Shown piece after piece: positions 5,738 through 60,704 of a stretch of DNA of 61,918 nt; the first letter of the stretch is position 1; each line of letters begins with the position of its first letter. The DNA is from Campylobacterales bacterium. GTDB taxonomy: Bacteria > Campylobacterota > Campylobacteria > Campylobacterales > Sulfurimonadaceae. Where the stretch lies: positions 1 to 61,918 of the forward strand of contig JAFGUB010000061.1 of the NCBI GenBank assembly GCA_016938735.1, written 5' to 3'. Under the pieces are notes generated by a model. It saw only the letters and a list, made by a program, of their open reading frames with translations, was not told the DNA's origin and searched no databases. Position numbers and translations under genes: made by a program.

Positions 5738-7948
5738 TTGCAGCTTATCATCGTCGAATCACCCGCCAAGGCCAAAACCATCAAAAACTTTTTGGGCCGT
5801 GAGTATGAGGTGATCGCCTCCAAAGGCCATATCCGCGACCTTCCGCAGGCGCGTTTTGGCATCAAGATCGAAAACGACCGGTTTGTCCCCGAGTACAGCG
5901 TCTCCAAAGAGAACGCCGCCACGCTGAAGCAGATCATGACGCTGGCCAAAACAGCCGATCAAATCTACCTCGCGACCGACGAAGACCGCGAAGGAGAGGC
6001 AATCGGCTGGCACATCGCGCACGCGCTGGGACGCGATCCGCTCACCTTGCCGCGCATCGTCTTTCACGAGATCACCAAAACTGCCATCATGCACGCGCTC
6101 GAGGCACCGCGCAGCATCGACATGAACCGCGTCAACGCCCAGCAGACACGCCGTTTGCTTGACCGCATCGTCGGCTACAAGCTCTCGCCGCTGCTCAGCT
6201 CCAAGATCCAAAAAGGGCTCTCCGGCGGGCGCGTACAATCCTCCACGCTCAAAATCGTCGTAGACCGCGAACGCGAAATCCGCGCCTTTGTACCGCAGGA
6301 GTACTGGAGCATCGACACCCTTTTTGCCCCAAGTATCGAAGCCAATCTGGTCGGTTTTGAGGGCGAGAAGATCGAAAAACTCTCGATTGCCAACGAAGAG
6401 CGCGCCGCGTATGTCTTACATGTAATAGAAAAAGAGGCGTTTAAGGTGCACGCCATCGAGACCAAAGAGCGCAAAAGCGCCACGCCGCCCCCTTTTATGA
6501 CCTCGACGCTCCAACAGACTGCTTCTAGTCGTCTAAGCCTTTCGCCCAAAAAGACCATGATGATCGCCCAGACCCTCTATGAAGGGGTACAAACCCCCGA
6601 TGGCATCTCAGGCGTCATCACCTACATGCGTACCGACTCACTCAACCTTGCGCACGAAGCGGTCGAATCGGCCAGAGCGCACATTATGCAGCGTTACGGC
6701 AAAGCCTATCTGCCCGAGCAGGCGAAGGTATACACCAAAAAAGCCAAAGGGGCGCAAGAGGCGCACGAAGCGATCCGCCCGACCATGGTGGAGTTTACTC
6801 CTGAAATTGCCGAAAAATACCTAAAACCCGACGAGCTCAAACTCTACCGCCTCATCTACAACCGCTTTTTGGCCTGCCAGATGAACGACGCGCGCTTTGA
6901 GCAGCAGAGCATCACCTTTTTAAGCCCCAAGGCCGAATACCGCGCGACGGGGCGCAAACTGCTCTTTGACGGTTTTTATATTTTAGAGGGCAGCGACGAT
7001 AAAGACAAACTGCTCCCCACACTCAAAGAGGGCGACAACGCCGCTATCGAGAGCATCAAACCCGTCCAACACTTCACCGAGCCCCCTGCGCGCTACTCCG
7101 AAGCGAGTCTGATCAAAAAACTCGAAGCGGAGGGGATCGGTCGTCCCTCCACCTACGCGCCCACCATCTCCACGCTCCAAGCACGCGAATACATCACCCT
7201 AGAGAAGCGCCAAATCGTCCCGACAGAGATTGCCTTTACAGTCACAGAGATTTTGGAGCAGCACTTTGAAGAGATCGTCGATTCGGGCTTTACCGCCGGC
7301 ATGGAAGAGCTGCTCGACGACGTCGCCGAAGAGGGCAAAGATTGGCAAAAGGTACTGCGCGACTTCTACGGTCCCTTTAGCGAAAAGATCGAGCAGGGCA
7401 AAAGCGCCATCAAAAGCCAAAAAACGGCCACCCCGATCGGACGGCAGTGCCCCAAATGCGGCGCTGAACTGCTGCTGCGCTCGGGCCGCTTCGGCGAGTT
7501 CATCGCCTGCAGCGCCTATCCTAAATGCAAATACACCGAGCAAGTCGGCGGTGAAGAGAAAGCCCAAGAGAGAGAGCCTGAAGAGATCAGCGACGAAAAG
7601 TGCGACAAATGCGGCAGTGCGATGCTCATCAAAAACGGGCGCAACGGCAAGTTTCTGGCCTGTAGCGCTTACCCCAAATGCCGCAACACCCGATCGCTCG
7701 AAGCGCCCAAAAGCTCAGGCGTCCCCTGCCCGCTCTGCGGCGGCAAGCTGCTGTGGCGCACCTCCAAGCGCGGCGCGTTCTGGGGTTGTGAAAACTACCC
7801 CAAATGTACCTTTATTTCCAAATTCGAGCCCTCCGGCAAAAAATGCACGCAAGAGGGGTGTGAAGGCATTCTGGCGCAGCGCACCTACCGTGGCAAAGAG
7901 GTCTTTGAATGCCTTACATGTAAGACCCGTACGCCGGTTGAGGAGTAG
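5738..7948 (+). CDS. topA: DNA topoisomerase I (type IA)
   Basis: Relaxes negative supercoils by transient single-strand cleavage. The TOPRIM domain is at the N-terminus (LIIVESPAKAKTI, then ATDEDREGEAIGWH, the acidic metal site). The catalytic tyrosine lies in GVITYMRTDS at about residue 296. The C-terminus holds three full four-cysteine zinc ribbons (CPKCG...C...PKC, CDKCG..., CPLCGG...) and a fourth, looser one ending CLTCKTRTP. I choose the TTG at 5738, which gives 736 residues: it has AGGAA five bases upstream, sits just before the conserved LIIVESPAKAK strand, and follows a TATAAT box. An in-frame ATG at 5663 would add 25 unconserved residues. Two TTACATGTAA copies lie inside the gene (6416, 7914), one encoding part of the last zinc ribbon. 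Confidence 0.95.
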   Translation: MQLIIVESPAKAKTIKNFLGREYEVIASKGHIRDLPQARFGIKIENDRFVPEYSVSKENAATLKQIMTLAKTADQIYLATDEDREGEAIGWHIAHALGRDPLTLPRIVFHEITKTAIMHALEAPRSIDMNRVNAQQTRRLLDRIVGYKLSPLLSSKIQKGLSGGRVQSSTLKIVVDREREIRAFVPQEYWSIDTLFAPSIEANLVGFEGEKIEKLSIANEERAAYVLHVIEKEAFKVHAIETKERKSATPPPFMTSTLQQTASSRLSLSPKKTMMIAQTLYEGVQTPDGISGVITYMRTDSLNLAHEAVESARAHIMQRYGKAYLPEQAKVYTKKAKGAQEAHEAIRPTMVEFTPEIAEKYLKPDELKLYRLIYNRFLACQMNDARFEQQSITFLSPKAEYRATGRKLLFDGFYILEGSDDKDKLLPTLKEGDNAAIESIKPVQHFTEPPARYSEASLIKKLEAEGIGRPSTYAPTISTLQAREYITLEKRQIVPTEIAFTVTEILEQHFEEIVDSGFTAGMEELLDDVAEEGKDWQKVLRDFYGPFSEKIEQGKSAIKSQKTATPIGRQCPKCGAELLLRSGRFGEFIACSAYPKCKYTEQVGGEEKAQEREPEEISDEKCDKCGSAMLIKNGRNGKFLACSAYPKCRNTRSLEAPKSSGVPCPLCGGKLLWRTSKRGAFWGCENYPKCTFISKFEPSGKKCTQEGCEGILAQRTYRGKEVFECLTCKTRTPVEE

Positions 7949-7951
7949 GGC

Positions 7952-8467
7952 GTGACCATCGGATTACTCTCCGACACCCACCGCCGCAGTGACTATGCCA
8001 AGACGGCCATAACGCATCTGCTGGATGCGGGAGCAGAGTTTCTGATCCACGCCGGAGATATCGGCGAAAAGGCGACGCTTGATCTGCTTGAGCGCAGCGG
8101 CAAGCGCTACGTTGCGGTTTATGGCAACAACGATGCCGCGCTGACGCACTACCACAATGCCTATGCACTGGTACAAGAACCCTACCTCTTCAAGTTGGCC
8201 GACACCACCTTTAAACTGATGCACCTCCCCTTTTACCTCACCCCTGATGCCGACGTGGTGATTTTCGGCCACACCCACGCCTTTGAGTGCGACTACAAAG
8301 GCAACACCCTCTATCTCAACCCCGGCGAGACCTGCGCGCGCAACAAAGACCTCAGCGAATGCGCGCTGCTGCGCCTTAGCCATGAGCGCTTCGACGTCAC
8401 CTACTACAGCCGCAGCAGCGCGCAAAGCACTTTTGACGCGCAGCACTTTAGCTATGAACGGCGGTAA
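7952..8467 (+). CDS. YfcE/MJ0936-type metallophosphoesterase
   Basis: A 171-residue calcineurin-like phosphodiesterase of the small YfcE family. Metal-binding motifs are in order: LLSDTHRR (D-x-H), IHAGDIG (G-D), YGNNDA (G-N-x-D, usually GNCD) and FGHTHAF (G-H-T-H), with the family signature LNPGETCA near the end. The GTG start lies three bases past the topA stop, with AGGAG overlapping the end of topA, so the two are co-transcribed. Members hydrolyse cyclic or model phosphodiesters in vitro; the physiological substrate is not known. Confidence 0.85.
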   Translation: MTIGLLSDTHRRSDYAKTAITHLLDAGAEFLIHAGDIGEKATLDLLERSGKRYVAVYGNNDAALTHYHNAYALVQEPYLFKLADTTFKLMHLPFYLTPDADVVIFGHTHAFECDYKGNTLYLNPGETCARNKDLSECALLRLSHERFDVTYYSRSSAQSTFDAQHFSYERR

Positions 8468-8471
8468 TGCG

Positions 8472-9326
8472 ATGCAAAAGATCTTTCTCTGCTCCATCAG
8501 CAACATCAACAGCGGTACATGTAACGAAGATTGCAAATTCTGCTCCCAAAGCGTGCGCTACCGCGCCAAAATCGAGCGTTACGTCCGAAAGCCGATTCCC
8601 GCCATCGTCGAAGAGGCGCGCGCATTAGAGCGTCTTGGAGCTTTGGGCTTTTGCCTTGTGACCGCCCAAAAGGGGCTGGATGACAAGACACTGGAGTTTG
8701 TCTGCGAAGTGGCACGAACGGTCAAGGCCGAAGTCCCCAGACTGCGCCTTATCGCCTGCAACGGCACCGCGACGCTAGAGCAGCTTCAAGAGCTCAAGCG
8801 GGCGGGCATCAGCGCTTACAACCACAACTTAGAGACCTCCGAAGCCTTCTATCCGCAGATCTGCACCACCCATCCATGGAGCGAGCGCTTTGAGACCTGC
8901 GAGCAGGTACGCCGCGCGGGACTGAGCCTCATCTGCGGCGGCATCTTCGGTCTGGGCGAAACCCAACAAGACCGCCTTGAGATGCTCGAATCAATCCGCT
9001 CCTTGCACCCCGTCTCCGTACCGCTTAACTTCTACCACCCCAACCCCGCTCTACCGCTCAACCCGCCCAAGCTCAGCGTCGATGAGGCACTAGAGTTGAT
9101 CCGAATCTCACGGCGCGTGCTGAGTGATGTCGATCGTATCATGATCGCCGGCGGACGCGAAATCACCTTTGGAGCACGCCAAGAGGAGATTTTCGAGGCC
9201 GGAGCCAACAGTATCGTGATCGGTAACTACCTTACCACCCTAGGCCGTGACGCCCATGAAGACCTGCAGATGCTTGGCCGCCTCGGGTTTGTCGTTGCCA
9301 CCGATACGCAAGTAGCGCGCCCATGA
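8472..9326 (+). CDS. bioB: Biotin synthase, radical SAM
   Basis: Inserts sulfur into dethiobiotin, the last step of biotin synthesis. The radical-SAM triad is Cys17, Cys21, Cys24 in GTCNEDCKFC. Other BioB motifs are YNHNLETSEAFY, CGGIFGLGE and PLNFYHPNP. At 284 residues it is the short form found in Campylobacterota. I choose the ATG at 8472 (GGCGG at 7 bases); an ATG at 8454 overlaps the preceding gene and has no ribosome site. The gene begins five bases after the phosphodiesterase stop and ends with an ATGA overlap with the next gene. A TACATGTA core falls exactly on the first catalytic cysteine codon. Confidence 0.93.
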   Translation: MQKIFLCSISNINSGTCNEDCKFCSQSVRYRAKIERYVRKPIPAIVEEARALERLGALGFCLVTAQKGLDDKTLEFVCEVARTVKAEVPRLRLIACNGTATLEQLQELKRAGISAYNHNLETSEAFYPQICTTHPWSERFETCEQVRRAGLSLICGGIFGLGETQQDRLEMLESIRSLHPVSVPLNFYHPNPALPLNPPKLSVDEALELIRISRRVLSDVDRIMIAGGREITFGARQEEIFEAGANSIVIGNYLTTLGRDAHEDLQMLGRLGFVVATDTQVARP

Positions 9327-9856: not shown

Positions 9857-9865
9857 GGAGTTATT

Positions 9866-10828: not shown

Positions 10829-10838
10829 CTACATGTAA
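10829..10838. repeat. Dispersed palindrome, intergenic copy (CTACATGTAA)
   Basis: A one-mismatch copy of TTACATGTAA, 51 bases upstream of the PAS/GAF sensor, just before a possible -10 box (TATGATAAA, 10851-10859). It could sit in the promoter between divergent msrA and the sensor. Confidence 0.8.
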
Positions 10839-15127: not shown

Positions 15128-18100
15128 ATGTCGATCAAAACAGCCCTACTTCACACCCTCAAAACCCGTCCGCTCATCATCGACGGCGCGATGGGCACTC
15201 AGCTTCAAGAGCGCCATGCACAGATTCCGTCCGAAGCGTGGGAGGGTAATGAGGGGTGCAACGAGCTGCTCAACGTCACCTGTCCTGAAGTGATGGAGTC
15301 GATCTTCAACGCCTACCTGACCGCCGGGGCAGACCTCATCACCACCAACACCTTCGGCAGCTTCTCTTGGGTGCTTGAGGAGTACGGCATCGGCCACCGT
15401 GCCTATGAGCTTTCCAAAGCGGGCGCGGCGATTGTGCGCAAAAAGTGCGACGCGTTTTCGACACCCGAGCAGAGGCGCTACGTGCTGGGCTCCATCGGGC
15501 CGGGCACCAAACTGCCTTCACTGGGGCATATCGGTTATGATGCGATGTTTGAGGGGTATCTGGAGTGCTGCCTGGGGCTCATTGACGGCGGCTGCGATAT
15601 TTTTCTGCTTGAAACCTGCCAAGATCCGCTGCAGATCAAAGCGGCGCTGCACGCCTGCGAAGCGGCCAACCGTGAGCGCGGTACCGATCTGCCCATTATG
15701 GTTTCAGTGACCATCGAGCTTTCAGGCACCATGCTCATCGGCACCGACGCGCAGACGATCGCCGCCATCTTGGAACCTTTTGATATCCTCTCGCTGGGTT
15801 TTAACTGCGGCACGGGGCCCGAGCAGGTGGCCAAACACGTCAAAACCCTCTCAGAGGTGTGGGGCGGTCTCATTTCGGTTCATGCCAACGCCGGACTGCC
15901 GCAAAATCGGGGCGGTTACAGCTTTTATCCGATGGGGCCCGAGGAGTTTGCGCAGCGCCAAGAGGGCTTTTTGGAGTATGCGGGAGTGAGCTTTTTGGGC
16001 GGCTGTTGCGGTACGACGCCGCAGCATATCCGCGCACTGGTCAACCGCGTTACATGTACACAACCCAAAGCCCCCTCAGGCAGCCAGCCCCGCGCCCTTG
16101 CCTCACTTTTTCATACGGTTCCTCTGATGCAAGAGCCCGCCCCGCTGCTCATCGGCGAGCGCTCCAACGCCACGGGTTCCAAAGCCTTTCGGGAGCTGCT
16201 TTTGGCAGAAGATTATGAAGGAACGCTCAGCGTCGGACAGCAGCAGGTGCGCGCCGGAGCGCACGTGCTGGATGTCTCGGTGGGCTTTGCCGGACGCGAC
16301 GAGACCAAAGATATGGCGCAGGTGATTGACCTCTACGCCCAGAAACTCTCGCTCCCACTCATGCCCGACTCCACCCAAACCCCAGCACTCGAAGCGGCGC
16401 TTAAACGCATCGGTGGACGCGCCTTCATTAACTCCGTCAACCTCGAAGACGGCATCGAAAAATTCGACATCGTCTGCACTCTGGCCAAAAAATACGGCGC
16501 GGCACTGGTGTGTCTAACCATCGATGAGACGGGCATGGCCAAGACGGTAGCGCGCAAACTTGAAATCGCCGAACGTATCTATGAACGCGCCACCGTCTTG
16601 CACGGCCTCGATCCGCGCGATCTGGTGTTCGATCTGCTCACCTTCACCGTCGGCAGCGGCGATGAGGAGTACCGCGACGCGGCGGTGCAGACCATCGAAG
16701 CGATCCGAGAACTGCGCACGAGACATAGCGAAGTGGGCGCGGTGCTGGGGCTTAGCAACATCTCATTCGGTCTCGATAAAAACGCCCGCCCCTACCTCAA
16801 CTCCATCTTCCTCGACCACTGCATCAAAGCGGGGCTCACCGCCGTGATCATCAACGTCGCGCACATTATCCCGCTGAGTAAAATGAGCGAAGCCGATCAA
16901 AGGGCGTGCAACGATCTGCTCTTTGATACCAAACCGAACGGTCAAGCACTTTTTGATTTTATCGCGCATTTCGGCTCCAAAGAGGTGGTCGATCACGCCG
17001 CTGATGACGCGGCCTACAACGCCCTAAGCCCTGAGCTTAAAATCCGAAAACTGCTGATGGATGGCGACAAGGAGCGGATGTTGCCGCTGGTGGAGAGTGT
17101 ACATGGTAGCCTTGGTGCCGAGCGCATCGTCAATGAGATCCTGATTGACGCCATGAAAGAGGTGGGTGAGCTCTTTGGATCAGGCAAGATGCAGCTTCCT
17201 TTTGTCCTGCAAAGCGCCGAGACCATGAAAGCCACGGTCGATGCCCTGCAACCCTACCTGCCCAAAACCGAGAAGGCCGCCGATACGACGCTGATTCTAG
17301 GCACCGTCAAAGGTGACGTGCACGACGTGGGCAAAAATCTGGTAAACATCATCCTCTCTAACAACGGCTTCAAGGTGATCAACCTTGGCATCAAAGTGGG
17401 CATCGAAGCCTTTATCGACACGCTTCAAAGCAGCGGTGCGCAGGCCATCGGCATGAGCGGATTGCTGGTTAAATCCACGCAGGTGATGCAAGAGAACTTG
17501 CACGCGCTCAAAGCAGCGGATATCACCGTCCCCGTACTGCTAGGCGGTGCGGCGCTCACGCGTAACTTCATCGATGAGTACTGCCGCCCCAACTACGACG
17601 GGCCGATCTTCTACTGCAAAGACGCTTTTGACGGCGTCACCGCCATGAGCCGCATCGAAAAAGGCAACTTCGATACGCAGTTACATGTACGAGACGAGAT
17701 TGAAGAGATCAAAGAGCACACGGAGGTGATCATTCCGCCGTTTGCGCAGCTCTCTATGCCATCGCGCGATGTGCGCGTACCGACTCCACCGTTTTGGGGG
17801 CGGCGCGTCATCACCCTTACCCCCGCTCAGATCAACCTCGCCTTTGAGTGGATCAACCACAAAATCCTCTTCAAACAGCGCTGGGGCTACAGCTCCAAAG
17901 GGATGGACAAAACCCTCTACCGCGAGCAGATTGAGCGGGTCGTACGGCCGGCGTATGAGCGGCTCAAAGCGCAGTTTATCGACCAACAACTCTTCGAGCC
18001 CACGCTCATTTACGGTTACTACCCCGTGCGTAGCAGTGAGCGTAGCCTCTATATCTTCGATGAGGGCGAAGGCTTTACATGTAACGACGATATCAACCGC

Positions 18101-18702: not shown

Positions 18703-19614
18703 ATGAATCGTGTTTCATTGTTTCTCAGCGCTGCGGCGCTTGCTTTTTTGACGGCATGTGGTGGTGGAGGCAGCAGCGGGGGAAGCAACACCGCTTCTAG
18801 CAGCTCAGCCCCTGTTAATGGTTCAACCTCTTCTCAAGCCAGCAGCATCCAAAGCGTATCGAGCAGTAGCGCCCAAGGCACGCAAAGCAGCAGCAGTTCA
18901 CTCACCGCGCAAGCCAGTACATTGGCAGCAGCCGGAATGCTGGTTGATTCGGAATTTATTTCAGGAATGTTGGGTATTGCAAACGCATTTAGCAACACAG
19001 GATTCGCTAGCAACCTCCGCGCTGCACAGACGATTCCATGCCAAAGTGGCACCATGAACTATGACATCACTACAGGTGGTCCAAATATCACTTTCAACCA
19101 ATGCGTCAACGACGGCACAACTATCAACGGCACCATGAGCAGCAGCAACTTCAACGCAAGTGCCAATGGCTACTCAGGCACCTATACCTTCTCGAATTTT
19201 ACTATTGATGACACTGAAACACATACCTTCATGAACCTCTCCATGCAGACCAATGTGCAACTCTCCGGCACCACACTCACCTCTTATGATGTCACCATGA
19301 ACGGTAGAATGGAAGCGACGGAAGAGGGTCAGATGAGTCGCCTCACCTTCACCGATTACCGCGCCGTTATGACGAATAATTCGGTCTCCATTAGCGGAAC
19401 ATTCGAGCTCTACCGCGATCCTGAAGTTTGCAATGCCAACGGCACCTATACCATTACCACCGTCACACCCATCACCTACAATACCAACGGCGAAGTTACC
19501 GGTGGTGCCCTCAACATCAACGGTACTGTCTATACATTCAACGCAAATCAAACCGTCACCGTCAACGGACAAACCTACGATCTTGAAGAACTTGAAAGTA
19601 CATGTAGCGCTTAA
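18703..19614 (+). CDS. Surface lipoprotein with Ser-rich linker
   Basis: A 303-residue lipoprotein (MNRVSLFLSAAALAFLTAC, Cys19 followed by GGGGSSGG). A long Ser/Ala/Gln linker (to about residue 80) precedes a Thr/Asn-rich beta domain that contains three cysteines near 110, 135 and 245. No known enzyme motif is seen; it resembles secreted Campylobacterota proteins with GGGSSG-type tethers. AAAGGAA supports ATG 18703. The last codons contain a TACATGTA core (19599) encoding STC. Confidence 0.7.
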   Translation: MNRVSLFLSAAALAFLTACGGGGSSGGSNTASSSSAPVNGSTSSQASSIQSVSSSSAQGTQSSSSSLTAQASTLAAAGMLVDSEFISGMLGIANAFSNTGFASNLRAAQTIPCQSGTMNYDITTGGPNITFNQCVNDGTTINGTMSSSNFNASANGYSGTYTFSNFTIDDTETHTFMNLSMQTNVQLSGTTLTSYDVTMNGRMEATEEGQMSRLTFTDYRAVMTNNSVSISGTFELYRDPEVCNANGTYTITTVTPITYNTNGEVTGGALNINGTVYTFNANQTVTVNGQTYDLEELESTCSA

Positions 19615-19749: not shown

Positions 19750-22700
19750 ATGCACCCAAATACCCTCAAACGGTTTGCGCTCGCGGCCCTGCCGTTTTGT
19801 GCTGCGCTCTCTTTGTACGCCGATGCGAGCGACATCGTCATCAACGAAATGCGCTCTACGGGCGATTATGACTACATCGAGCTTTACAATAAAAGTGCGA
19901 CGCCTTACACCTTTACGGCAAGTGAATGGGTCGTCAAAGACAGCAAAGACGAAGACAACTTCGCCATCCCGGGCGGCACCACCATCGCGGGCAACGGCTT
20001 TTTGCTGCTGCTGGTCGATAACACGACCTTGCCCGCAGGCGCGCCCGCTACGGCACTCCTGGCACAAACCGGCGCCGATTTCGGTCTGGGCAAAGGCGAT
20101 ATGGGACGCCTGTTTCACAACAGCAACTTGATGGACAGCCACACCATCACCGCCGATGCCCACGCCGATACCGAAGGGCGCTATCCTGATGGTAGCGACA
20201 CTTGGGAAGCGGGTCTCATAGCCTCACCCGAAGCGGCCAACCAAACCGCCGGCAGCGTCGTCTTTGATCCTGCTTCGATCATGATCAACGAAGTCTGCTC
20301 CAATGCACCGTGCACTTACGACTTCATCGAACTCTACAACACCGGTATCAGCGACTACACCTTTGCCGAGGGAGAATGGGTGGTCAAAGACGGCGATGAC
20401 GCACATGCCTTTGCCATCCCTGCAGGCACCGTGATCAAAGCCGGCGGCCATCTACTGATTTTGCCTGATAGCACCACACTGCCCGAAGATGCTCCATCAA
20501 GTGCGCTCATAGCCGCCAGCGGAAGCGATTTTGGTTTGGGTAAAGGCGACAGTGCGCGGCTCTACTACAACACAACACTCGTGCATGAGTATGCCTGGGC
20601 TTCAGGCACCCATGCCGCAAGTAACGGCAGTATTCCAGATGGCAATGCAACCATCAGTGTCGGCATCACCCCAACCCCCGGTCTGATCAACCAACCCGCA
20701 AGCAGCGGCGATATCGTCATCAACGAAGTCTGCTCTAATGCCCCGTGCGATTACGATTTTATCGAGCTTTACAATAAAAGTGCCTCCAACTACACCTTTA
20801 GCGGCACATGGGAGGTTAAAGATAACGATAACACCCACAGCGTCACGATTCCTGCAGACACCACCATTCCCGCAAACGGCTTCCTGCTTGTAGCCGTCGA
20901 TGACTCAAGCATTCCTGCCGGTGCACCTGCCGATACCATCGTCGGCGGAGCAAACGGTTTTGGTCTGGGCAAGGGTGACAGTGCGCGGCTCTTTCAAGGC
21001 GGTGTGCTCAAAGACAGCTTCACATGGCCTAGCGATACCCACGCCGGTACACTCGGGCGCTTCGCCGACGGCGCAGCGTGGAGTGCCAAAACGCAAGCCG
21101 CCACACCCGGTGAAGCCAACGCCTTTGCCGCTACATCGGGCAGCCCAAGCGATATCATGATCAATGAAGTACGCTCAACCGGGGACTTCGACTACATTGA
21201 GCTCTATAACGGCGGTACCCTGGCCTACGCCTTCGCTGCTGGCGAATGGGTCGTCAAAGACAGCGACGACGCCCATGCCTTTGCGATTGCCGGCGGCACG
21301 ACCATCGATGCCAAAGGCTTCTTGGTACTGCTCGTCGATAACGACGCTCTGCCCTCTGGCGCTCCTGCAGGCGCTCTGGTGAACTCGGGGACTACCTTTG
21401 GCTTGGGCAAAGGCGACAGCGCACGACTTTATCACAACAGCGCACTAATGGACAGCCACACCATCACCTCCGGCAGCCATGCCGACACAGACGGGCGTCT
21501 GCCTGATGGCGGCTCATGGCACAGCGGCCTTGCGGCCAGCGTTGGTGGCAAAAACAGGCAAAATCCTGCGCAAACGCTTAGCGCAACCATCCTCGATTTT
21601 AGTGCTTTCAATGCCCAGGAAGCCGCGCTTGAGGCTCAGGGAATGCGCGTATTTGGCCCTAACGCTACACTCGCGCAAGACGTCGAACCCGAATACGTCG
21701 CCATCGCCAAAGACGGCAGCGCGGCGTGGGTGAGCCTGCAAGAGAACAATGCCATCGCCAAAATCACGCTGGGTGCCACACCGACCATCAGCGCCATCTA
21801 TCCGCTGGGCTATAAAGACCATGGTCTGAGCCAAAATGCCATCGATGCCAACGACAAAGACGGCGCACTGGTACTCAAAACCTACCCCGGCCTCTATGGC
21901 ATCTATCAACCTGACGGAATCGCCACGTTTAAAGATAACGGTGTCGATTATGTCATCTCCGCCAACGAAGGGGATGTACGCGACTGGTTTACAGGCTTTG
22001 ATGAATCCTCCCGCGTGAGTGCACTTGATCTGGACGATACAGCGTTTGCTAATGAAGCCACGCTTAAAACCGATGCCGAAATGGGCCGTCTGACCGTCAC
22101 CAAAAACCTCACCTCTGCCACACCGGAAACAACTTTTGATACCCTACATGTATTCGGTGGACGCTCATTCTCGATCTGGAACGGCGCGACGGGTGCGCAG
22201 GTGTTTGACAGCGGCAGCGATATCGCCATGCGTGCCAACGCCGCAGGCATCCACCCCGACGGACGCAGCGACAACAAAGGCAACGAACCCGAGAGCGTCG
22301 CCGTTGGAATGGTTGGCAGCACGCGCCTTGCGTTTGTAGCACTCGAACGCTCGCACGCGGTGATTGTCTATGACATCACCAATCCTTCCGCGCCTGTTTT
22401 CTCGCAGATCCTCACCCACACAGGCGATGAAGCACCCGAAGGCGTGCTCTTTATCGACGCCACGCAGAGCCCAAGCGGCAAAGCACTTTTGGTGGTGAGC
22501 AACGAAGACAGCGGCACGGTAAGCGTTTATGAAAACGGCAGCGACACTACCTTTGCACACAAAGACACCATCGCTCTTGAAGGCGGCACGGCTGCAGCGG
22601 AGATCAGCGCCTTTGATCCCGTGAGCAAAAAACTTTTTGTCATCAACAACTCTGCAGCCGCAGGCTCACGTATTGATGTCATCGATATGAGCAATCCGGC

Positions 22701-23700: not shown

Positions 23701-24884
23701 ACTTTGAGGCCCAGCGCCTCGAACCACTTTTTCATCTTTCCCTCATACCCTGCATCTTTAAGCGCTACAAATTTCAAAGGTTTACTCAAATACTCCTCCT
23801 GTTCCACCCATCCGCCAAAATCGTGCGGATACATGTAACCCTCATAGTGCTGTCGTATCTGCTTGGGAATCTCCAGAATCTCGCCGCTCTGCACCGCTTT
23901 TTGCGCAGCGTTGATGGCGGCGTAGGCGCTGTTACTTTTAGGTGAGCCGCAGAGGTAGATGACGGTCTGCGCCATAATGATCCGTGCTTCGGGGTAGCCG
24001 ATCTGCTTGACCGCCATCAGGCACGACGTAGCGAGTGTGAGCGCCTGCGGGTTGGCGTTGCCCACATCTTCGCTAGAGAGGATCACCAAACGCCGCGCGA
24101 TAAAATCAGCGGGTTCACCCCCCTCAATCAGGCGTGCGAGATAATAGATGGCGGCGTCGGGGTGGCTGCCGCGTATGCTCTTGATGAGCGCCGAAGCGAG
24201 ATCATAATGCACGCTTGCCTCAGAACTGCCATCACTCAGTGCCACGGGGCGCAGTTGCATCAGCAGTGTAAGGCTTACATGTAAGGAGATGGCTGAGGCA
24301 AATTCAAGTAGTTTGAGCATCGCTCTGGCATCACCGCCGCTGGAGCGCAGCAGATAGTCTCGCGCGTCATCTTCTACATGTAAGCCCTCACGCTCCTTGG
24401 CGCGTGCTAACAACAGCGCTAACGCTTCGGTTTTGATGGGGTAGAGTTCAAAGAGCATCGAGCGCGAGCGCATCGCGGCGGTGAGGGAGAAGAAGGGATT
24501 TTCTGTCGATGCGCCGATGACTAACACGGCGTTTGTCTCCATCACGGGAAGTAAAACCTCCTGCTGGTTTTTGGCCAGACGGTGCACCTCATCGATAAAG
24601 ATCAGCGGCCGCTGCAAAGTGCCGCGAGTGCGCTCAAAGATTTTGCGCAGCTCTTCGATTTTGAGGCTGGTGGCATTCAACTCATAAAAAGGGAGCTCCA
24701 TCACCCGCGCAATAATCCGCGCCAGCGAGGTCTTGCCGCAGCCCGGCGGGCCAAAGAGAAAACTATGCCCCAAAGCGCCCTTTTCGCACAACACTCTTAG
24801 CGGCGCATCAGATGCGCTCAAGTGGCGCTGACCTACCAAATCGTCAAAGCACTCAGGCCGCAGCAGATAGCTAAAATCGGCCAT
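23697..24884 (-). CDS. rarA: Replication-associated recombination ATPase RarA (MgsA)
   Basis: A 395-residue AAA+ ATPase related to the clamp loader, acting at stalled forks. Walker A is FGPPGCGKTSLAR (about residue 43), Walker B is IFIDEVHRLAKNQQ, and sensor 1 is IGASTENPFF. The C-terminal tetramerisation part includes AIYYLARLIEGGEPADFIARRL and ASSEDVGNANPQAL-like motifs. It overlaps the lamin-tail gene by four bases at the convergent 3' ends. It is the last gene of a kdsD-rluB-rarA operon (3-base gap to rluB). Three TACATGTA cores lie inside (23830, 24275, 24375). Confidence 0.94.
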   Translation of the reverse strand: MADFSYLLRPECFDDLVGQRHLSASDAPLRVLCEKGALGHSFLFGPPGCGKTSLARIIARVMELPFYELNATSLKIEELRKIFERTRGTLQRPLIFIDEVHRLAKNQQEVLLPVMETNAVLVIGASTENPFFSLTAAMRSRSMLFELYPIKTEALALLLARAKEREGLHVEDDARDYLLRSSGGDARAMLKLLEFASAISLHVSLTLLMQLRPVALSDGSSEASVHYDLASALIKSIRGSHPDAAIYYLARLIEGGEPADFIARRLVILSSEDVGNANPQALTLATSCLMAVKQIGYPEARIIMAQTVIYLCGSPKSNSAYAAINAAQKAVQSGEILEIPKQIRQHYEGYMYPHDFGGWVEQEEYLSKPLKFVALKDAGYEGKMKKWFEALGLKV

Positions 24885-41285: not shown

Positions 41286-44200
41286 CTAAATGTGCCCCCG
41301 CTCATAAAAGCGCCGCAAATACGCATCCAGCGGATACATAAAGCGATAAATCGCGGGAACGATCAGCAAGGTCAGAACCGTCGAGCTAATCAGTCCGCCG
41401 ATGATGGCAATGGCCATCGGGGCGTTGCTCTCATGCCCTGCGCCGCTGCTCAGCGCCAAGGGAAGCATCGCGCCGATCATCGCAAAAGTGGTCATCAAAA
41501 TGGGGCGCAAGCGGCGCTCTCCGGCTTCAAGCAGGGCGGTTTCTACCTCTTTGCCCTCTTTGATGGCGCGATTGGCAAAGTCCACCACCAAGATGGCGTT
41601 CTTGCCCACCATCCCCATCAGCAAGATGATTCCGATGAGCACAAAGATGCTAAAGGGGTTGCCGCTGAGATAGAGCGCCAAAATCACCCCCGTAAAGCTC
41701 AGCGGCAGCGCCACCATGATGATGATGGGTTGGATGAGCGACTCATAAAGCGCGGCAAGGATGATGTAGATCAAAATCAGCGAGAGCCCCACCGTAAAAG
41801 CAAAGGCCGCCGCCGTCTCTTGCATCCGTTCGATATCGCCCGTGTAGCGGTAGTGGTAGCCCGGCTCGAGCATCGTCTTCATCGCTTCATCAATTTTCGA
41901 GACCACATCGCTCAGCGCCGCTCCTTCGAGGTTGGCGGTGACAAGAATTTTGCGTTCGCGGCTAAAACGGTTGATCGATGCCGCCCCCTCGCGCATCTCA
42001 AAGCGCACCAAGCCCTCAAGAGCGACAAAATCTCCGCTTGCGGTTTTGATCTGCAGCTTTTTGATATCTTCGACGCTTTTGCGGTATTCATCGCCGAGGC
42101 GCAGGGTGATATCGTATTGACGTCCCTGCTCTTCAAAGCTTGAGACGGCACTTTCGCTCGAAAAGGCGCTCGAGAGCAGCGCAGCGATCTGCTCTACGCT
42201 CACCCCCACACGCTGCGCGTTTTCGCGCTCGATGACGATGCGTACCTCGCTTTTACCCGGTTCAAAATCGCTATCGATATCAATCACTCCATCCATCCCC
42301 CCAAGCAAGGTTTGCAGCTCTTGCGAGAGCGCTTCGAGCTGGTTTAGATCGGGCCCCGTGAGCACCACCTGAACGGGGGTATTGGACTCACCCGAATCAA
42401 TCGGCGGCAGATCCTCAACGCTGATGGTAAAGCCCTTAAAGGCGGCAAACTTCCTGCGGTACTCCCCCACAATCTCCTCTAAGCCCTCCCTGCGCGCCTC
42501 GACAGGGACGAGCTTGACGTAGATCATCGCCTTGTGCGGCTCATTGGCGCTCGTGTAGCCGACGCTCAGCGCCACATCCTCGATGCGCGCGTCACCTTCG
42601 AATACATGTAACATCTTGGTAGTCGCCCTATTCATCGCCTCGAGCGAGGTGCCTACCTCACCTTTGATGAGCACGCGTAGTTCGCGCATATCCTCCATCG
42701 GTACGAAGGTGCCCCCGATTTTGCCCGCAAGGCTCCCCGAGAGCACCAGCACCCCAACGGCGCCCAGAAGGGTGAAGGTTTTGTAGCGAATCAGTGGACG
42801 CAGCAGCGCGCGGTACCCACGATCCAGCCGCACAAACAGCGGCTCCGTGGCGTGCCAAAAGCGCCCCTCGTGGCCGCTAAGAATCCGCGCCCCCACCGAG
42901 GGGATAAACATGATCGCCACAAAAAAGGAGAGCACCACCCCCGAAGCGACCGTCATCGCAAAGGAGTTGAAAAACTTGCCGACGATGCCGTCCATATAGG
43001 CCACCGGTACAAAGACCGCCAGCAGCATCGCCGAGATCGCCAGAATCGAAAAGGCCATCTCCGCGACCCCCTCAAAAGCGGCGCGAAATCCCTCGATGCC
43101 CTGCTCCATCTTTTTCGAGATGTTCTCGATCACCACAATCGCATCGTCGATAAAAATACCGATCGAGAGGGTAAGACCGATCATCGTCAAGCGGTTAAGG
43201 TCATAACCCAGCATATCAATGAGCGCAAAGGTGCCGATGATGGAGGTGGGAATCGAGAGCGCCGAGACCAGCGTTGCCTTGGCGTTGCGCAAAAAGAGAA
43301 AGACGATCACGATGGAGAGCAGCGCCCCAAAGAGCAGATCAAATTTGACGTGGTCGATATTGACCATAATCTTGCCCGACTGATCCTCAACCGGGGTGAT
43401 CGTATAGTCGCTTCCCGCAATCGCCTGCAGCCCGGAAAGCGCTGCTTTGACCCCCTGCGCCACATCCAGCGTATTGCTCCCCGAGATCTTTTGGACCTGC
43501 AGCAGCACCCCGGGCGTACCGTTCACCAGAGAGTAGCTTTTGGCATCCTCAAGACCGTCTTCGACGCGCGCAATATCTTCCAGCCGCACCCCCGGACGCA
43601 CCATCAGTGCACGCAGCTCCTCCACACTTGTAGCGTCGCCGCGCGTCTTGATGATCAGATCGTGCGACGCATCCACCAGCTTGCCGCCGCCGGCGCGCAC
43701 ATTTTGGCGTGCGATCAGATCGCTCAGCTCGCTGGCGGAGAGGGCGTATTTGCTCAGCAAAAAGGGATCGACAAAGATGCGGATTTCGCGCTCGCGGTAT
43801 CCGACGATCTTCACCTCGGCGACATCTTTGATCCGTTGAAGCCGGGGCTTGAGCTGCTCATCGGCTAAGCGCATCAGCGCGGGGATATCGCCCGTCTTGG
43901 TCGAGACAAAGAGCTTGATCGCCGCCGCGCCGCTGGTGCTCACCTTTTTGACAATCGGGGCCTGCACACCGTTTTCAAAGCGGATACCGCCGATTTTGTC
44001 ACGCACGTCATTGGCGGCTTCTTCAATCCCTTTGAAGAGCTCAAACTGGATCATCACGACACTCATGCCCTCATAACTGGTAGAGAGCAGTTTATCGATG
44101 CCATCAATCCCCGAGACCGCCTCTTCGATCTGGTCGGTCACTTTGGATTCGACCGTTTCGGGATCAGCCCCGTAGTAGGCCGTCTCGATGGTGATAATGG

Positions 44201-44321: not shown

Positions 44322-45062
44322 CTACTCCACCTCGATACTGCCCTCACCGAAGAGCCCGACCATCAGACCTTCGGTGAGCACTTCGGCGTAGGCTTTGCGC
44401 GTTTTGGGATCGACGCTGGGATAGACCTTGGCAATCACCCCTTCGCGCTGTGTATCCGAACCATCAACCCTGTAGCGTACATGTAAGCCCGGTTTGATCT
44501 TCTGCCAATACTTCTCATCAAACCCCGCCACCAACTTCACGCTAGAGTCATCAATGAGCGTCAAAACGGGTGAGAGCATCGCCCCGCTTACCCCATCGCC
44601 CACCTGTTTGTGCCGCTTGGTGATCACCCCTGCATACGGGGCGCGCAAAATGCTCTTTTGCAGCGTCGCTTCTTTGAGCGAGAGGTCGGTTTTGGCGCGG
44701 CGCAGCGCGGCCTGAGTTTGAAGGTAGGCCGATTCGACCTCTTCAAAGCGCTCCTCATCCATCACGTCGCGCACCTGTTTAAAGCGCTCAAACGACTGCT
44801 GTGCAAAGCGTGCGCGCAGCTCAGAGAGCGCCACGTCGTCGCGGGCCAGCGCCACGGAACGCTCCAGATCGTCGTTGTCGAGCGCCAGCAGCACATCGCC
44901 CGCTTTGACGCGCGAGCCGACATCCACGCGCATGGTCTCAATCACCCCCGTTGAGGTAAGGGTGAGTTCAGACTCTTGAAGCGCCACGACATCAAAGGTC
45001 ATATAGACGGACTCCGCGCTCAACACAGCGGCGCACCAAAGGGAAAGTAGTACAGTTTTCAT
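44322..45062 (-). CDS. Periplasmic adaptor (membrane fusion) protein of RND efflux
   Basis: A 246-residue HlyD/AcrA-type adaptor with a signal peptide (MKTVLLSLWCAAVLSAES). The split lipoyl domain is MRVDVGSRVKAGDVLLALDNDD and ILRAPYAGVITKRHKQVGDGVS, on either side of an alpha-helical hairpin (about 70-125). The beta-barrel and a short membrane-proximal part follow. It is shorter than AcrA (about 390) and typical of small Campylobacterota adaptors. It overlaps the TolC gene by four bases. Confidence 0.88.
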   Translation of the reverse strand: MKTVLLSLWCAAVLSAESVYMTFDVVALQESELTLTSTGVIETMRVDVGSRVKAGDVLLALDNDDLERSVALARDDVALSELRARFAQQSFERFKQVRDVMDEERFEEVESAYLQTQAALRRAKTDLSLKEATLQKSILRAPYAGVITKRHKQVGDGVSGAMLSPVLTLIDDSSVKLVAGFDEKYWQKIKPGLHVRYRVDGSDTQREGVIAKVYPSVDPKTRKAYAEVLTEGLMVGLFGEGSIEVE

Positions 45063-46981: not shown

Positions 46982-47402
46982 CCATTAGAACAATCTTTGA
47001 GACCAAACGTAGCAGTTGTTCGGGCGTTGCCTGATAGGGATCAAAAGGGAGCGTTTTAACAATCGGGAGTACATGTAGATAAAACGCGCCGGAGATGTCG
47101 CTCATCGTCCAAGCCTCAAAGCGCCGCGCATCAATAGGGTCATGGATCACCGTTGTCACGTCGTGATGGCGCGGATCTTTTTTGATGTGGGCGTAAAGCG
47201 CTTCGATCTGCGCGCGCTCGCCTTCGAGATACTGCATAAAGTAGGTGCCGTCATAGATCAGCGCACCCGTCAGACCGCGCGCTCGGTTGTTGCGCGCCGA
47301 GAGGGTCAAAATGGCCTGAATCTCTAAAAACTCCAAAGTAGGATCACCCCTGCTAATATACAACAACGCGATCAACGCTTCTTGTTTGACAGCTTCGTTC
47401 AT
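46977..47402 (-). CDS. BLUF-domain blue-light sensor
   Basis: A 141-residue single-domain BLUF protein that binds FAD. ALLYISRGD carries the key tyrosine (about residue 15), RNNRARGLTGALIYDG carries the asparagine and arginine, and YFMQYLEGER carries the glutamine. RHHDVTTVIHDPIDARRF and WTMSD complete the domain. No output domain is fused, so it must signal by protein contact. A TACATGTA (47070) encodes LHV. Confidence 0.92.
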   Translation of the reverse strand: MNEAVKQEALIALLYISRGDPTLEFLEIQAILTLSARNNRARGLTGALIYDGTYFMQYLEGERAQIEALYAHIKKDPRHHDVTTVIHDPIDARRFEAWTMSDISGAFYLHVLPIVKTLPFDPYQATPEQLLRLVSKIVLMA

Positions 47403-54459: not shown

Positions 54460-56251
54460 CATAGCGTCGGCACAGCGCCAAAAAGGCTTCGCCGTAACGC
54501 TCGAACTTCACCGCTCCGATCCCGCCGACACGCAGCATCTGCTCCTCGTTTTGCGGCAGCGCCAAAGAGAGCTCTTTGAGGGTTTTGTCGCTGAAGATCA
54601 CATACGGCGGGACCCCTTGCGCCTGCGCCAGCTCGCGGCGCAGCGTGCGCAAGGCATCAAAGACCCGCTCGTCGTATTCGCCTGAGGCGGGCGCTTTTTT
54701 GGCCGCGCTCGCTCTAAGCTCCAGCCGATCGGAGCGGATCTCGACGCTCTGTTTGCCGCGCAGAATCATTTCGCCGACGGGGGTGAGGGAGAGCACCTGA
54801 AATTCCCCTACATGTAAGGCCTCAAGCTCCAGCAAACGCTCAAAAAGCACCATCCACTGCTTTTTGTGCCACGCTTTCCCGATGCCGTAGACCGAAAGCG
54901 CATCATGGCCGTTTTCCAGCAGGCGCTTCTCTTTGGATCCCATCAGCACGTCGATGAGGTAATTTTTGCCAAACCGTGCACCGCAACGATAGAGCGCGGA
55001 GAGAAACATCTGCGCTTCGCGGCTAATGTCGCGCTTGGCGCGGCTGGTGTCGGTACAGTTGTCGCAGTGTGCGCCGCACGGCTCGATGGTATCGCCGAAA
55101 TAGCGCGCCAAAGCCTGATGGCGGCACCCCTCCTGCGCGGCAAAGCGGCTCATGGCATCAAGCTTGGAGAGCAGATGATCGCGGTATGGTCCCGCTTCGA
55201 GCGGCTCGATAAAGCGCTTTTGCGCAATCACGTCACTCGCCCCAAAGAGCGCCACCACCTCCGCATCATCCCCATCACGCCCCGCGCGGCCGATCTCCTG
55301 ATAGTAGTTCTCCAGCGTCTTGGGCAGCGCGGTATGCAGCACGAAGCGGATGTTGGATTTGTCGATCCCCATCCCAAAAGCGATGGTGGCGACAATGATG
55401 CGGGTCTCGTCATGCACGAAGGCGCGGTAGATCTCGTTGCGCACACCCGCCTCCAGCCCCGCATGGTACGCCTGCGCTTCAAAGCCCTTGCGACTGAGCA
55501 TCTGCGCGATGCGTTCGGTGCTTTTGCGCGAAAGCGCGTAGATGATGCCGCTTTGATCCTTGCGCTCTTTTAAAAAGGCGACGATCTGATCATCTCCATC
55601 ACCGATGCGGTGCTTACATGTAATGAAGAGATTGGGCCGATAGAGCACTCCGCGCAGAATCAGCGGATCGTTTAGCGCCAAATGATCGACAATATCGTGA
55701 CGCACCGTGTCGGTTGCGGTCGCGGTAAAGGCGGCGATGGGGGTATGGGGAAAGTGTTCGCGCAACTGCGAAAGTGCGCGGTAGTCGGCGCGAAACTCAT
55801 GCCCCCATTCGCTAATGCAGTGCGCCTCATCGAGCACAAAAAAGTTGATCCTGACCCGCCGCAGCAGCGCGCGCAGCGCATCGGTGTTGAGCCGCTCGGG
55901 CGAGAGGTAGAGAAACTCCAAGGCACCCTCTAGCAACTGCTCGACGATCTGCGCGCTTTCACGCTGATCTTGCATCGAAGAGAGCATCTGCGCGCGCATC
56001 CCCGCAGCGCGTAGCGCCGTAACCTGATCATGCATCAGCGCGAGCAGCGGCGAAACGACGACCGTGGTGCCGCCCATGAGCAAGGTCGGGAGCTGATAGC
56101 ACAGCGATTTTCCGCCGCCGGTGGGCAGGATCATGAGCAGATCGCGGCCGCCGATGAGCGCCTCTACCGCCTCTTGCTGGAGGGGACGAAAAGCGCTGTG
56201 CCCGAATCGGGACTGGAGTACTTCTAAAGGCTGTGGATTCATGCGCGCCAT
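54449..56251 (-). CDS. recQ: ATP-dependent DNA helicase RecQ
   Basis: A 600-residue 3'-5' helicase of recombination and fork repair. Motif I is ILPTGGGKSLCYQLP, motif II is VLDEAHCISEWGHEFR, motif III is AFTATAT, motif V is IIVATIAFGMGIDKSNIRFV, and motif VI is QEIGRAGRDG. The zinc-binding RecQ-Ct has CRHQALARYFGD, then CGAHCDNCTD. A C-terminal HRDC domain follows (about 520-595; PPYVIFSDKTLKELS). Start either ATG 56251 or ATG 56242 (MNPQP). Two palindromes inside (54809, 55614). Confidence 0.95.
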   Translation of the reverse strand: MARMNPQPLEVLQSRFGHSAFRPLQQEAVEALIGGRDLLMILPTGGGKSLCYQLPTLLMGGTTVVVSPLLALMHDQVTALRAAGMRAQMLSSMQDQRESAQIVEQLLEGALEFLYLSPERLNTDALRALLRRVRINFFVLDEAHCISEWGHEFRADYRALSQLREHFPHTPIAAFTATATDTVRHDIVDHLALNDPLILRGVLYRPNLFITCKHRIGDGDDQIVAFLKERKDQSGIIYALSRKSTERIAQMLSRKGFEAQAYHAGLEAGVRNEIYRAFVHDETRIIVATIAFGMGIDKSNIRFVLHTALPKTLENYYQEIGRAGRDGDDAEVVALFGASDVIAQKRFIEPLEAGPYRDHLLSKLDAMSRFAAQEGCRHQALARYFGDTIEPCGAHCDNCTDTSRAKRDISREAQMFLSALYRCGARFGKNYLIDVLMGSKEKRLLENGHDALSVYGIGKAWHKKQWMVLFERLLELEALHVGEFQVLSLTPVGEMILRGKQSVEIRSDRLELRASAAKKAPASGEYDERVFDALRTLRRELAQAQGVPPYVIFSDKTLKELSLALPQNEEQMLRVGGIGAVKFERYGEAFLALCRRYVTE

Positions 56252-59147: not shown

Positions 59148-59474
59148 ATGTTTGAAGAGTATCTCTACGAAGCGGTGCGCGACCTGCTGCGCGCGCACGC
59201 GATCAACGGCTACGCCGCGAATATTTTAGCCCCTCATGTGGCGCGAACCTCGCTGCAGATGAACCACCTCTATGAGGATCTGGGCTTTAAAAGCCGCAGC
59301 GAAATGGGGCGCTTTATGAGCCGTAACTTCCCCACCCTCGCCGCGCAAAAGCCCAAAGAGAAACTCTGGAAAAAGTTTCTCTACGACTCTATCGGTGCTG
59401 TTGCTCCGGCCTGCATTACATGTAACGACCAAGCCACCTGCTTTACATGTATGCTCAGCGAGATGAGCGCATGA
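59148..59474 (+). CDS. nifQ: NifQ-type molybdenum donor for FeMo-co
   Basis: A 108-residue short NifQ. The match to the second half of NifQ is strong: NHLYEDLGFKSRSEMGRFMS (family: HLWQDLGLRSRDEL), NFPTLAAQ (family: FPPLAAR), KLWKKFLYDSIG (family: MRWKKFFYRQLC), then the cysteine motif ACITCNDQATCFTC (C-x2-C-x5-C-x2-C; the family has C-x4-C-x2-C-x5-C). NifQ carries a Mo-Fe-S cluster and passes Mo to FeMo-co assembly on NifEN. The first 60 residues of classical NifQ are absent. Two palindrome copies (59416, 59444) lie in the codons of this cysteine motif. The stop overlaps the MoxR start (ATGA). Confidence 0.8.
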   Translation: MFEEYLYEAVRDLLRAHAINGYAANILAPHVARTSLQMNHLYEDLGFKSRSEMGRFMSRNFPTLAAQKPKEKLWKKFLYDSIGAVAPACITCNDQATCFTCMLSEMSA

Positions 59475-60484: not shown

Positions 60485-60487
60485 GCG

Positions 60488-60622
60488 GTGGCGTACCGAC
60501 AAAGAAATAACGACTTTAAAACGGTACCGCTTGCAGACCCTGACTATTTGCGCTCCTGCTTTGTCGATTTTGGCGCTTTGTCTTGGAAAAATGCTCTTGA
60601 GCTAAGCCCATCAAATGCTTAA
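60488..60622 (+). pseudogene. C-terminal remnant of a DUF2442 protein
   Basis: A 44-codon frame from GTG 60488: AYRQRNNDFKTVPLADPDYL then SCFVDFGALSWKNALELSPSNA and stop. The end matches DUF2442 (F.DFG.L.W.NG.ELSP), a small domain often paired with DUF4160 in toxin-antitoxin-like modules. The N-terminal half is missing. It is the first of several decayed modules after the MoxR gene. Confidence 0.55.
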
Positions 60623-60694
60623 AAAGGGTGGATTATTAGAACATGACGAGAGGAGTGTAGCGTGATAAGCAGGGTTGGTGCACCTTGTTTTTCG

Positions 60695-60704
60695 TTACAT
60701 GTAA
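60695..60704. repeat. Dispersed palindrome TTACATGTAA, last copy
   Basis: An exact copy in the 220-base gap between the DUF2442 remnant and the DUF4258 gene. Apart from this and the short repeat at 60729 nothing else is seen in the gap. Confidence 0.85.

Follow-up and report, generated by a model that had tools for sequence, protein, structure and literature searches.

Why would one short palindrome recur dozens of times along a bacterial contig, and what keeps it there? We asked this of a window of 61,918 nucleotides (the whole stretch of DNA that was analysed; contig JAFGUB010000061.1 of assembly GCA_016938735.1, a Campylobacterales bacterium of the Sulfurimonadaceae), in which a first-pass annotation had described the 10-mer TTACATGTAA, with the 8-mer TACATGTA as its core, as a dispersed motif resembling HIP1, a highly iterated palindrome (HIP) of cyanobacteria. 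Our recount reproduced the 19 10-mers and 37 8-mers reported there, as well as the 6416-60704 span of the 10-mers, against means of 0.01 and 0.28 in dinucleotide shuffles. The hexamer ACATGT occurred 41 times, and 37 of these copies sat within TACATGTA, close to the earlier estimate of 37 in about 40 flanked by T and A. The genome containing the window (G000; 2,854,195 bp in 62 contigs, with 52.6% G+C in a 400,753-bp sample that includes the window) carried 1061 copies of TTACATGTAA, a sequence of 80% A+T, and no copy of the reversed pattern used as a control, so that the whole-genome count called for by the first-pass annotation lay far above expectation. In the sample, TACATGTA was found 262 times against 2.1-4.2 expected and TTACATGTAA 138 times against 0.14-0.20, a roughly 60-fold (8-mer) to 1000-fold (10-mer) excess, and density reached 0.37 per kb for the 10-mer over the whole genome and 0.65 per kb for the 8-mer in the sample. 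The shuffle counts and the zero reversed control rule out chance or base composition as the cause. Like the HIPs, the palindrome is thus present in great excess throughout the genome, both inside and outside coding sequence, and these counts confirm a real and strong HIP1-like element outside cyanobacteria. We found no prior description of the motif in the open-licence literature, subscription papers being outside the search.

Specificity proved to be near all-or-none. One-letter variants of TACATGTA, summed over the G000 sample, numbered 64 against 62.7-74.4 expected under the background models used, indicating no overall enrichment (variants at the third letter were somewhat over, 21 vs 12.4), and two half-sites set 1-11 bases apart occurred twice in 400,753 bp. 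In the full 10-mer context, core variants reached 10 vs 3.4 (p 0.003) in G000, a genome that has the D12 adenine methyltransferase discussed below; near-misses therefore form no large cloud and a faint one in G000. Of the one-off variants of the 10-mer in the sample, 108 of 118 deviated only at an end letter, as in HIPs, and the unit is best described as the 8-mer with favoured outer T...A, then G/A and G/C. In the genus g29, 82 of the 88 8-mers in 200 kb of G056 were the full 10-mer. Depletion of central-A variants, a hallmark of HIP1, was seen in G000 (4 vs 13.1) and absent in G056 (14 vs 13.0), and we do not claim it as a general feature.

The pressure on these sites acts on DNA. With coding calls from a simple open reading frame (ORF) picker (ORFs of at least 90 amino acids, not curated genes), 29 of the 37 window sites fell in coding sequence, with every phase and both strands represented, and eight were intergenic or at an ORF edge (see the table below), in line with the placement first described. 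Sites on cysteine codons, also described at first sight, were found in the BioB-like protein (at the start of its radical-SAM stretch) and in TopA (in a C-terminal CxxC, recognised as a zinc ribbon by eye only), and a further site overlaps a cysteine codon of the ClpX zinc finger. In the G000 coding sample, the tripeptide Leu-His-Val (LHV) occurred 112 times against 23.9 expected from residue frequencies; 92 of the 112 were spelled TTA-CAT-GTA, against 0.42 expected from codon use, and the 20 left without motif spellings were near expectation. Four pooled g29 genomes behaved likewise, with 133 LHV vs 28.1 expected, 116 of them motif-spelled (3.57 expected) and 17 left, and Thr-Cys written as ACA-TGT was in excess in both G000 (70 vs 5.5) and g29 (81 vs 34). 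Given that the peptides spelled by the motif are in excess, the DNA pressure is strong enough to change amino acids. Preferred peptides such as LHV and Thr-Cys-Asn, held up in the first-pass annotation as the competing cause, and codon bias were rejected, since LHV is over-represented only in the motif spelling and density is higher between genes. Although 208 of the 262 sites in the G000 sample lay within genes, density was 3-5 times higher in intergenic DNA (0.56 coding vs 1.78 intergenic per kb in G000; 0.35 vs 1.89 per kb in g29). Convergent, tandem and divergent spacers had 5.2, 1.5 and 1.9 sites per kb in G000 and 4.0, 2.2 and 1.1 per kb in g29; promoters are thus not favoured, because the densest spacers are the convergent and not the divergent ones. 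In G056 and G206, site density was 0.51 per kb where the two genomes share DNA and fell to 0.14 and 0.22 per kb in the unshared parts (p 0.001 and 0.02), making the motif 2-4 times rarer in strain-specific DNA, and G206 has a 29.7-kb motif-free stretch of low G+C that is 31% shared. The counts show that TTACATGTAA, with its core TACATGTA, is a highly iterated palindrome kept chromosome-wide by a process that reads DNA and not protein.

The comparison with related genera suggested by the first-pass annotation revealed a sporadic distribution. Among 397 genomes of the class, 25 had 194-1496 copies, nine had 15-107 and 363 had 0-11, while the reversed control gave 0-9; six of the 25 motif-rich genomes belong to the window's family (f1), 18 to f10 and one to f3. 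By record title, three motif-bearing loci with a D12 relative came from Sulfuricurvum sp., Helicobacteraceae and Epsilonproteobacteria metagenome-assembled genomes (MAGs), which puts these relatives within Campylobacterota and fits the Campylobacterota label of the first-pass annotation. Dialects, variants of the flanks, appeared in one motif-rich genome and in some with intermediate counts, as seen in 40 kb each of G186, G328, G209 and G331. The core in some relatives is ACATGT, which in G186 occurred 40 times vs 9 expected with loose flanks; G209 favoured ACATGTCA and ACATGTAA, and G331 favoured CTACATGTAG. A possible further dialect was noticed in the Campylobacterales MAG locus L339, where ACATGT occurred 11 times vs 2.9 expected, with no TACATGTA, beside a D12 relative.

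Sites were also conserved between relatives, a check raised with the original description. G056 and G206 (95% identity, 164 kb aligned) had 79 of 83 sites intact, compared with 2488 of 3263 8-mers of the same composition (p 8e-6), and between G272 and G265, at 80% identity, 29 of 38 sites and, in the reverse direction, 32 of 41 were intact (76-78%) against 24-25% in the control (p 4e-11 and 3e-12). Two genomes, G182 with 238 and G146 with 49 copies genome-wide, are both closer to G272 (86% and 83% identity) than G265 is, and are nested inside the motif-rich clade of the rpoB tree (support 95/93 for the 13-row fork and 86/93 for the pair). Loss was clear in both: of the G272 sites, 5 of 32 survived in G182 vs 38% in the control (p 0.009) and 5 of 50 in G146 vs 30% (p 0.0014), a faster-than-control loss limited to G272 as the reference, because the counts based on G265 were not significant. 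The remaining sites are old: G272 also has all 7 of those found in G146 and 5 of the 6 in G182. Protein identity to G272 at the motif tripeptides fell below background in G182 (75% vs 93%, 21 coding sites) and G146 (69% vs 90%, 33 coding sites), in contrast to the motif-keeping G265 (92% vs 86%, 26 coding sites). On the simplest reading, the maintaining force would have been lost in G182 and G146, after which codons and residues held only by the motif changed.

The agent that maintains the motif is not proven, and the evidence does not settle on one of the three functions offered in the first-pass annotation (methyltransferase target, site for a nucleoid or segregation protein, uptake or recombination signal). 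The foremost candidate agent is an orphan D12 enzyme of G000 (METHYLTRANSFERASE; PF02086, 1.6e-36; locus G000:C43), whose PF02086 domain has motif I and a DPPY motif, as in adenine methyltransferases of the D12 class, and whose gene lies between recO-like and Rrf2-regulator-like genes (named by eye). Relatives of this family were found at E 1e-3 in 247 of the 397 genomes, and full-length ones (over 400 bits) in 18 of the 25 motif-rich genomes. In a tree of 37 D12 members, 12 of the 13 rows from genomes with at least 300 copies fell outside a 22-row clade (moderate support, 93/87) that held 16 rows with 0-9 copies, five with 31-107 and, as the exception among the 13, G195 (446). Outside it, too, were three Helicobacter-like rows from family f2 (0-2 copies), and several motif-rich rows have long branches that leave their placement unsure. 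Within g29, ten genomes with the g29 enzyme had 1056-1496 copies and four without it had 49, 238, 412 and 934 (exact p 0.001, ignoring kinship; G209, which has 411 copies and another D12, was excluded). G182 and G146, where 10-16% of G272 sites survive, are among the genomes without the enzyme. Among the D12-less genomes, decayed copies were in excess in G351 (6 vs 2.6, p 0.05) and not significantly so in the other five. Given that the deepest g29 branches, G351 and G240, carry 412 and 934 copies without the enzyme, the enzyme may have joined an already existing motif in this genus. The link to the methyltransferase, as judged from sequence, is strong but imperfect, and the enzyme is an associate of the motif rather than its proven cause.

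Across 10 motif-rich genomes, the 7-14 kb flanking the enzyme showed no common partner gene across lineages and no nuclease that we recognised by eye (among ORFs that were listed and clustered); members of g29 share part of this neighbourhood, with recurrent response regulators and, in three genomes, a nearby trmA-like gene (by eye). A search of PDB sequences with the enzyme gave no match. PF01555 methyltransferases were rejected as the common factor, since they were found in nine of 22 panel genomes and in none of G000, G129, G351, G165, G182 and G368, and so was the C5 methyltransferase of G000, which adjoins an EcoRII-C nuclease and belongs to an ordinary restriction system. G000 also carries at least two HsdM and one Eco57I-like methyltransferase, seen among 51 loci read from a motif scan that gave 70 places.

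Several observations were made in passing around these enzymes. The C5 methyltransferase on G000:C40 (L114) has an N-terminal helix-turn-helix and stands beside a convergent EcoRII-C nuclease gene. The 39.9-kb second contig of G056 (G056:C2, L081) holds a second D12 relative and four TACATGTA in 3.9 kb, and is possibly a plasmid with both. Many f3 genomes have a divergent D12 relative of about 340-380 amino acids (E about 1e-55) that might correspond to CtsM, and in G109 a 1053-amino-acid ORF (L117:473-3631, - strand), Cas9-like by eye, lies near the D12 gene.

What the D12 family reads is suggested by the DNA around its members. We counted all of the best 80 of 544 relatives, 71 at loci not titled Campylobacterota and nine taken as Campylobacterota. 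At the 71 loci, CATG occurred 613 times against 1534 expected, a depletion such as a CATG restriction system would leave, and there was no motif excess (2 TACATGTA vs 8.3 expected). Three of the nine Campylobacterota-titled loci had TTACATGTAA (L270 with 4, L271 with 6 and L290 with 4), and L286, L319, L331, L337 and L348 had none; L270, from a Sulfuricurvum sp. MAG, has the closest enzyme with a named source among these relatives, at 77% identity. Across 70 loci (792 kb) on viral contigs that carry D12 relatives there were no TTACATGTAA and seven TACATGTA. A Helicobacter-like relative, L164, has a cysE-like gene before it and HAD-like and ABC-like genes after it (by eye), an order which we take to be that of hpyIM; a second such relative, L159, has other neighbours. 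The hpyIM enzyme is reported to be CATG-specific (PMC4687069; PMC2749054). The family target is probably CATG, which is also the centre of the palindrome, and we infer that the G000 enzyme may read the longer palindrome around it.

What use would such a mark have? In our view the likeliest is a methylated self-recognition tag on DNA that enters by natural transformation, a plausible reading that we hold with somewhat less than even confidence. The orphan enzyme would target the palindrome and methylate the A of the central CATG; the methylated palindrome would then identify self DNA as it enters, fragments bearing the tag would be taken up and recombined more often, so that copies accumulate, and mutated copies would be overwritten by tagged DNA. 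Uptake sequences would supply the logic, and CtsM-methylated DNA in Campylobacter offers a same-phylum precedent for methylation as a licence. We favour this reading because the drive ignores phase and strand, places amino acids, is weakest in newly arrived DNA and has dialects, like uptake sequences, and because uptake in Campylobacter jejuni is reported to be limited to CtsM-methylated DNA (PMC8468864); licensing of the CtsM type by the D12 enzyme would hold by analogy. More tentatively, and with more doubt than belief, we propose that in sulfur-oxidising Campylobacterota an orphan enzyme of the CATG family with a target expanded to 8-10 bp might mark the chromosome, and that biased uptake and recombination of marked DNA might have written about 1000 copies, altering proteins on the way.

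A number of observations weigh against parts of this account. Seven of the 25 motif-rich genomes (G129, G165, G182, G240, G307, G351 and G368) have no full-length D12 member, and G129 (a single contig), G165 and G182 gave no match to either PF02086 or PF01555; because the motif is kept there, the enzyme is not strictly needed or has been replaced: a second enzyme may do its work, or some other reader may keep the motif up. Moreover, the D12-less G129, G165 and G240 keep it with no significant excess of decayed copies. For a 30-genome test, 16 enzymes were taken as motif-associated, ten by tree placement and six (G123, G229, G248, G265, G272 and G380) by genus and score only; there were only five tree-based independent pairs, and the association was not significant (median p 0.25 or 0.5, depending on threshold). 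With G265 as the reference, survival in G182 (4 of 37 vs 23%, p 0.11) and in G146 (5 of 44 vs 23%, p 0.10) was not significantly below the control, and between G056 and G206, 11 of 171 common 8-mers, mostly of A/T-run types, were better conserved than the motif. All 42 genomes tested, whether rich or poor in the motif, had a ComEC domain, so that competence is possible in all and explains nothing by itself, and no receptor for the motif was found. The motif is a perfect palindrome, whereas the dispersed uptake sequences known to us are oriented and not palindromic. Spacing was not consistently even: its spread was low in two G000 stretches (p 0.027 and 0.019) and not in the other five, and sites in G056 and G206 were spaced more unevenly than random.

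Alternatively, the palindrome could be a site of chromosome function, to which a protein of the nucleoid or of segregation, replication or recombination binds, perhaps sensing methylation, with direct selection on each site and the methyltransferase at most a partner. Conservation, genome-wide spread, sharp specificity, rarity in unshared DNA and survival of the motif in genomes without the D12 enzyme (G240 and G165, for example) all agree with this, and we regard it as possible if doubtful, given that the species of G182 and G146 lost their sites and are still extant, that about 90 excess LHV in a 0.4-Mb sample imply a force stronger than weak site-by-site selection, that regular spacing is not consistent and that no binding protein is known. 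An uptake tag read by a competence receptor alone, with the D12 enzyme incidental, would accommodate the dialects and genomic geography, which fit uptake sequences, and the D12-less carriers; we find it unlikely, as the enzyme tracks copy number within g29, sites are lost where it is absent, and the palindrome is centred on the CATG that its family probably reads.

Nor does the motif need a function at all if a repair bias towards methylated sites creates palindromes, as Elhai proposed for HIP1 in a model that attributes HIPs to methyl-directed mismatch repair (PMC4390886). In favour of such a ratchet, one-letter deviations lie at the outer letters, a pattern also described for HIP1. However, MutL (PF01119) had no match in 30 of 30 panel genomes, with 11 of 14 matched in a control set, which closes the MutS/MutL route and makes the HIP1 mismatch-repair model inapplicable as written, and core neighbours are not enriched overall; a functionless mutational or repair ratchet is distinctly unlikely, even counting the version of it that could still work through some other repair or conversion enzyme. 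Transcription-factor sites or a by-product of restriction-modification we consider very improbable. Relatives of the D12 enzyme are CATG enzymes that in part stand beside NlaIII-like nucleases (PMC4687069), yet genomes commonly avoid restriction sites, a tendency visible for CATG near the homologues elsewhere, and no nuclease was recognised by eye near the enzyme in 10 genomes; a regulatory role sits poorly with sites that lie mostly within genes and with divergent spacers that are not the densest. The methylated tag for incoming DNA remains the use we favour.

HIP1 is a long-unexplained feature of cyanobacterial genomes. The likeness drawn to it in the first-pass annotation is apt as a description: the motif is a genome-wide palindrome under DNA-level pressure, with outer-letter deviations, sporadic occurrence among relatives and an associated orphan methyltransferase in most carriers, though not in all. 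HIP1 (GCGATCGC) and alternate HIPs are likewise described as genome-wide palindromes of at least 8 bp with outer-letter deviations and sporadic gain and loss, most of their carriers, but not every one, having an orphan methyltransferase that acts on the centre; HIP1 has about one copy per kb, compared with 0.37 (10-mer) to 0.65 (8-mer) per kb here (PMC4390886). The present motif differs in being AT-rich, whereas cyanobacterial HIPs are GC-rich, and in occurring with a CATG-family D12 enzyme in genomes without MutL; it is HIP-like and not one of the cyanobacterial HIPs. With the DNA uptake sequences of Neisseriaceae (PMC3630211) it shares a short dispersed motif in very many copies, dialects, and permissive and intergenic positions; here, however, the motif is a perfect palindrome with no known receptor, and an uptake role is suggested by analogy. 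The CtsM/RAATTY uptake system of Campylobacter shares the phylum, a stand-alone adenine methyltransferase and a palindromic target, but the target is another one, and C. coli has about 28,000 RAATTY copies against about a thousand copies here (PMC8468864, PMC8627207). Methyltransferases of the hpyIM/NlaIII type share the CATG-centred palindrome and, through the gene order around L164 that would match that of hpyIM, the cysE-like neighbour; here no nuclease was recognised nearby, the G000 enzyme lies outside the generic 22-row clade, and the motif is in excess instead of CATG being avoided.

A counterpart of HIP1 in another phylum, with gains, losses and dialects among close relatives, amounts to an independent experiment on palindrome iteration, in which the MutL-based explanation is ruled out for these genomes and the phenomenon is tied to an orphan methyltransferase of another family than in cyanobacteria. 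In the genomes where the force was lost, decay can be timed and the cause of the motif tested. If the uptake reading is true, the motif would illustrate how bacteria label self DNA and would form a genetic barrier between species, legible in the sequence itself. A methyl-licensed palindromic tag would then add a third type to the known uptake signals, one that combines uptake sequences and licensing of the CtsM kind, and would explain HIP-type palindromes without MutL.

Table. Copies of the palindrome in the window; strand is given as a dot, and intergenic calls and coding calls come from the ORF picker.
Element	Position	Strand	Location
TTACATGTAA	6416..6425	.	topA, spells LHV
TTACATGTAA	7914..7923	.	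topA close to C-terminus, spells Thr-Cys
TACATGTA	8516..8523	.	BioB-like gene, spells Thr-Cys
TTACATGTAA	9596..9605	.	AMMECR1-domain gene
TACATGTA	10830..10837	.	intergenic
TTACATGTAA	13861..13870	.	intergenic
TTACATGTAA	15109..15118	.	intergenic
TACATGTA	16051..16058	.	metH
TACATGTA	17682..17689	.	metH
TTACATGTAA	18075..18084	.	metH
TACATGTA	19599..19606	.	coding
TACATGTA	22145..22152	.	choice-of-anchor I/LTD gene
TACATGTA	23830..23837	.	coding, gene on - strand, Tyr-Met-Tyr
TTACATGTAA	24275..24284	.	coding, gene on - strand
TACATGTA	24375..24382	.	coding, gene on - strand
TACATGTA	26195..26202	.	coding, gene on - strand
TTACATGTAA	26496..26505	.	coding, gene on - strand
TACATGTA	27091..27098	.	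VTT-domain gene, Tyr-Met-Tyr
TACATGTA	27404..27411	.	clpX (- strand), Tyr-Met-Tyr
TTACATGTAA	28487..28496	.	clpX zinc finger (- strand), Thr-Cys
TACATGTA	30520..30527	.	intergenic
TACATGTA	31694..31701	.	intergenic
TTACATGTAA	35020..35029	.	GNAT gene
TTACATGTAA	35455..35464	.	amino acid 4 of transpeptidase-domain ORF, start codon uncertain
TTACATGTAA	36196..36205	.	UPF0014 gene
TTACATGTAA	41272..41281	.	intergenic
TACATGTA	42603..42610	.	coding, gene on - strand
TACATGTA	44478..44485	.	HlyD-domain gene (- strand)
TACATGTA	47070..47077	.	coding, gene on - strand
TTACATGTAA	48616..48625	.	intergenic
TTACATGTAA	49791..49800	.	PAS-domain gene
TTACATGTAA	51960..51969	.	coding
TACATGTA	54809..54816	.	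recQ-like gene (- strand)
TTACATGTAA	55614..55623	.	recQ-like gene (- strand)
TTACATGTAA	59416..59425	.	short ORF
TACATGTA	59444..59451	.	short ORF, the one that also holds 59416..59425
TTACATGTAA	60695..60704	.	intergenic

Elsewhere in the window, a 683-amino-acid ORF at 127-2178 (- strand), two genes from a flagellin gene, had no Pfam match. In 100 kb of G265 (L245-L249, genus g29), GATC was strongly under-represented, with 115 copies against 332 expected. Finally, the motif-poor G009 (L014, L015, G009:C1) may have another dispersed motif, as the non-palindromic 8-mer CTCACGCA/TGCGTGAG occurred 18 times vs 1.1 expected in 40 kb, and the 10-mer CTGCGTGAGC occurred four times.

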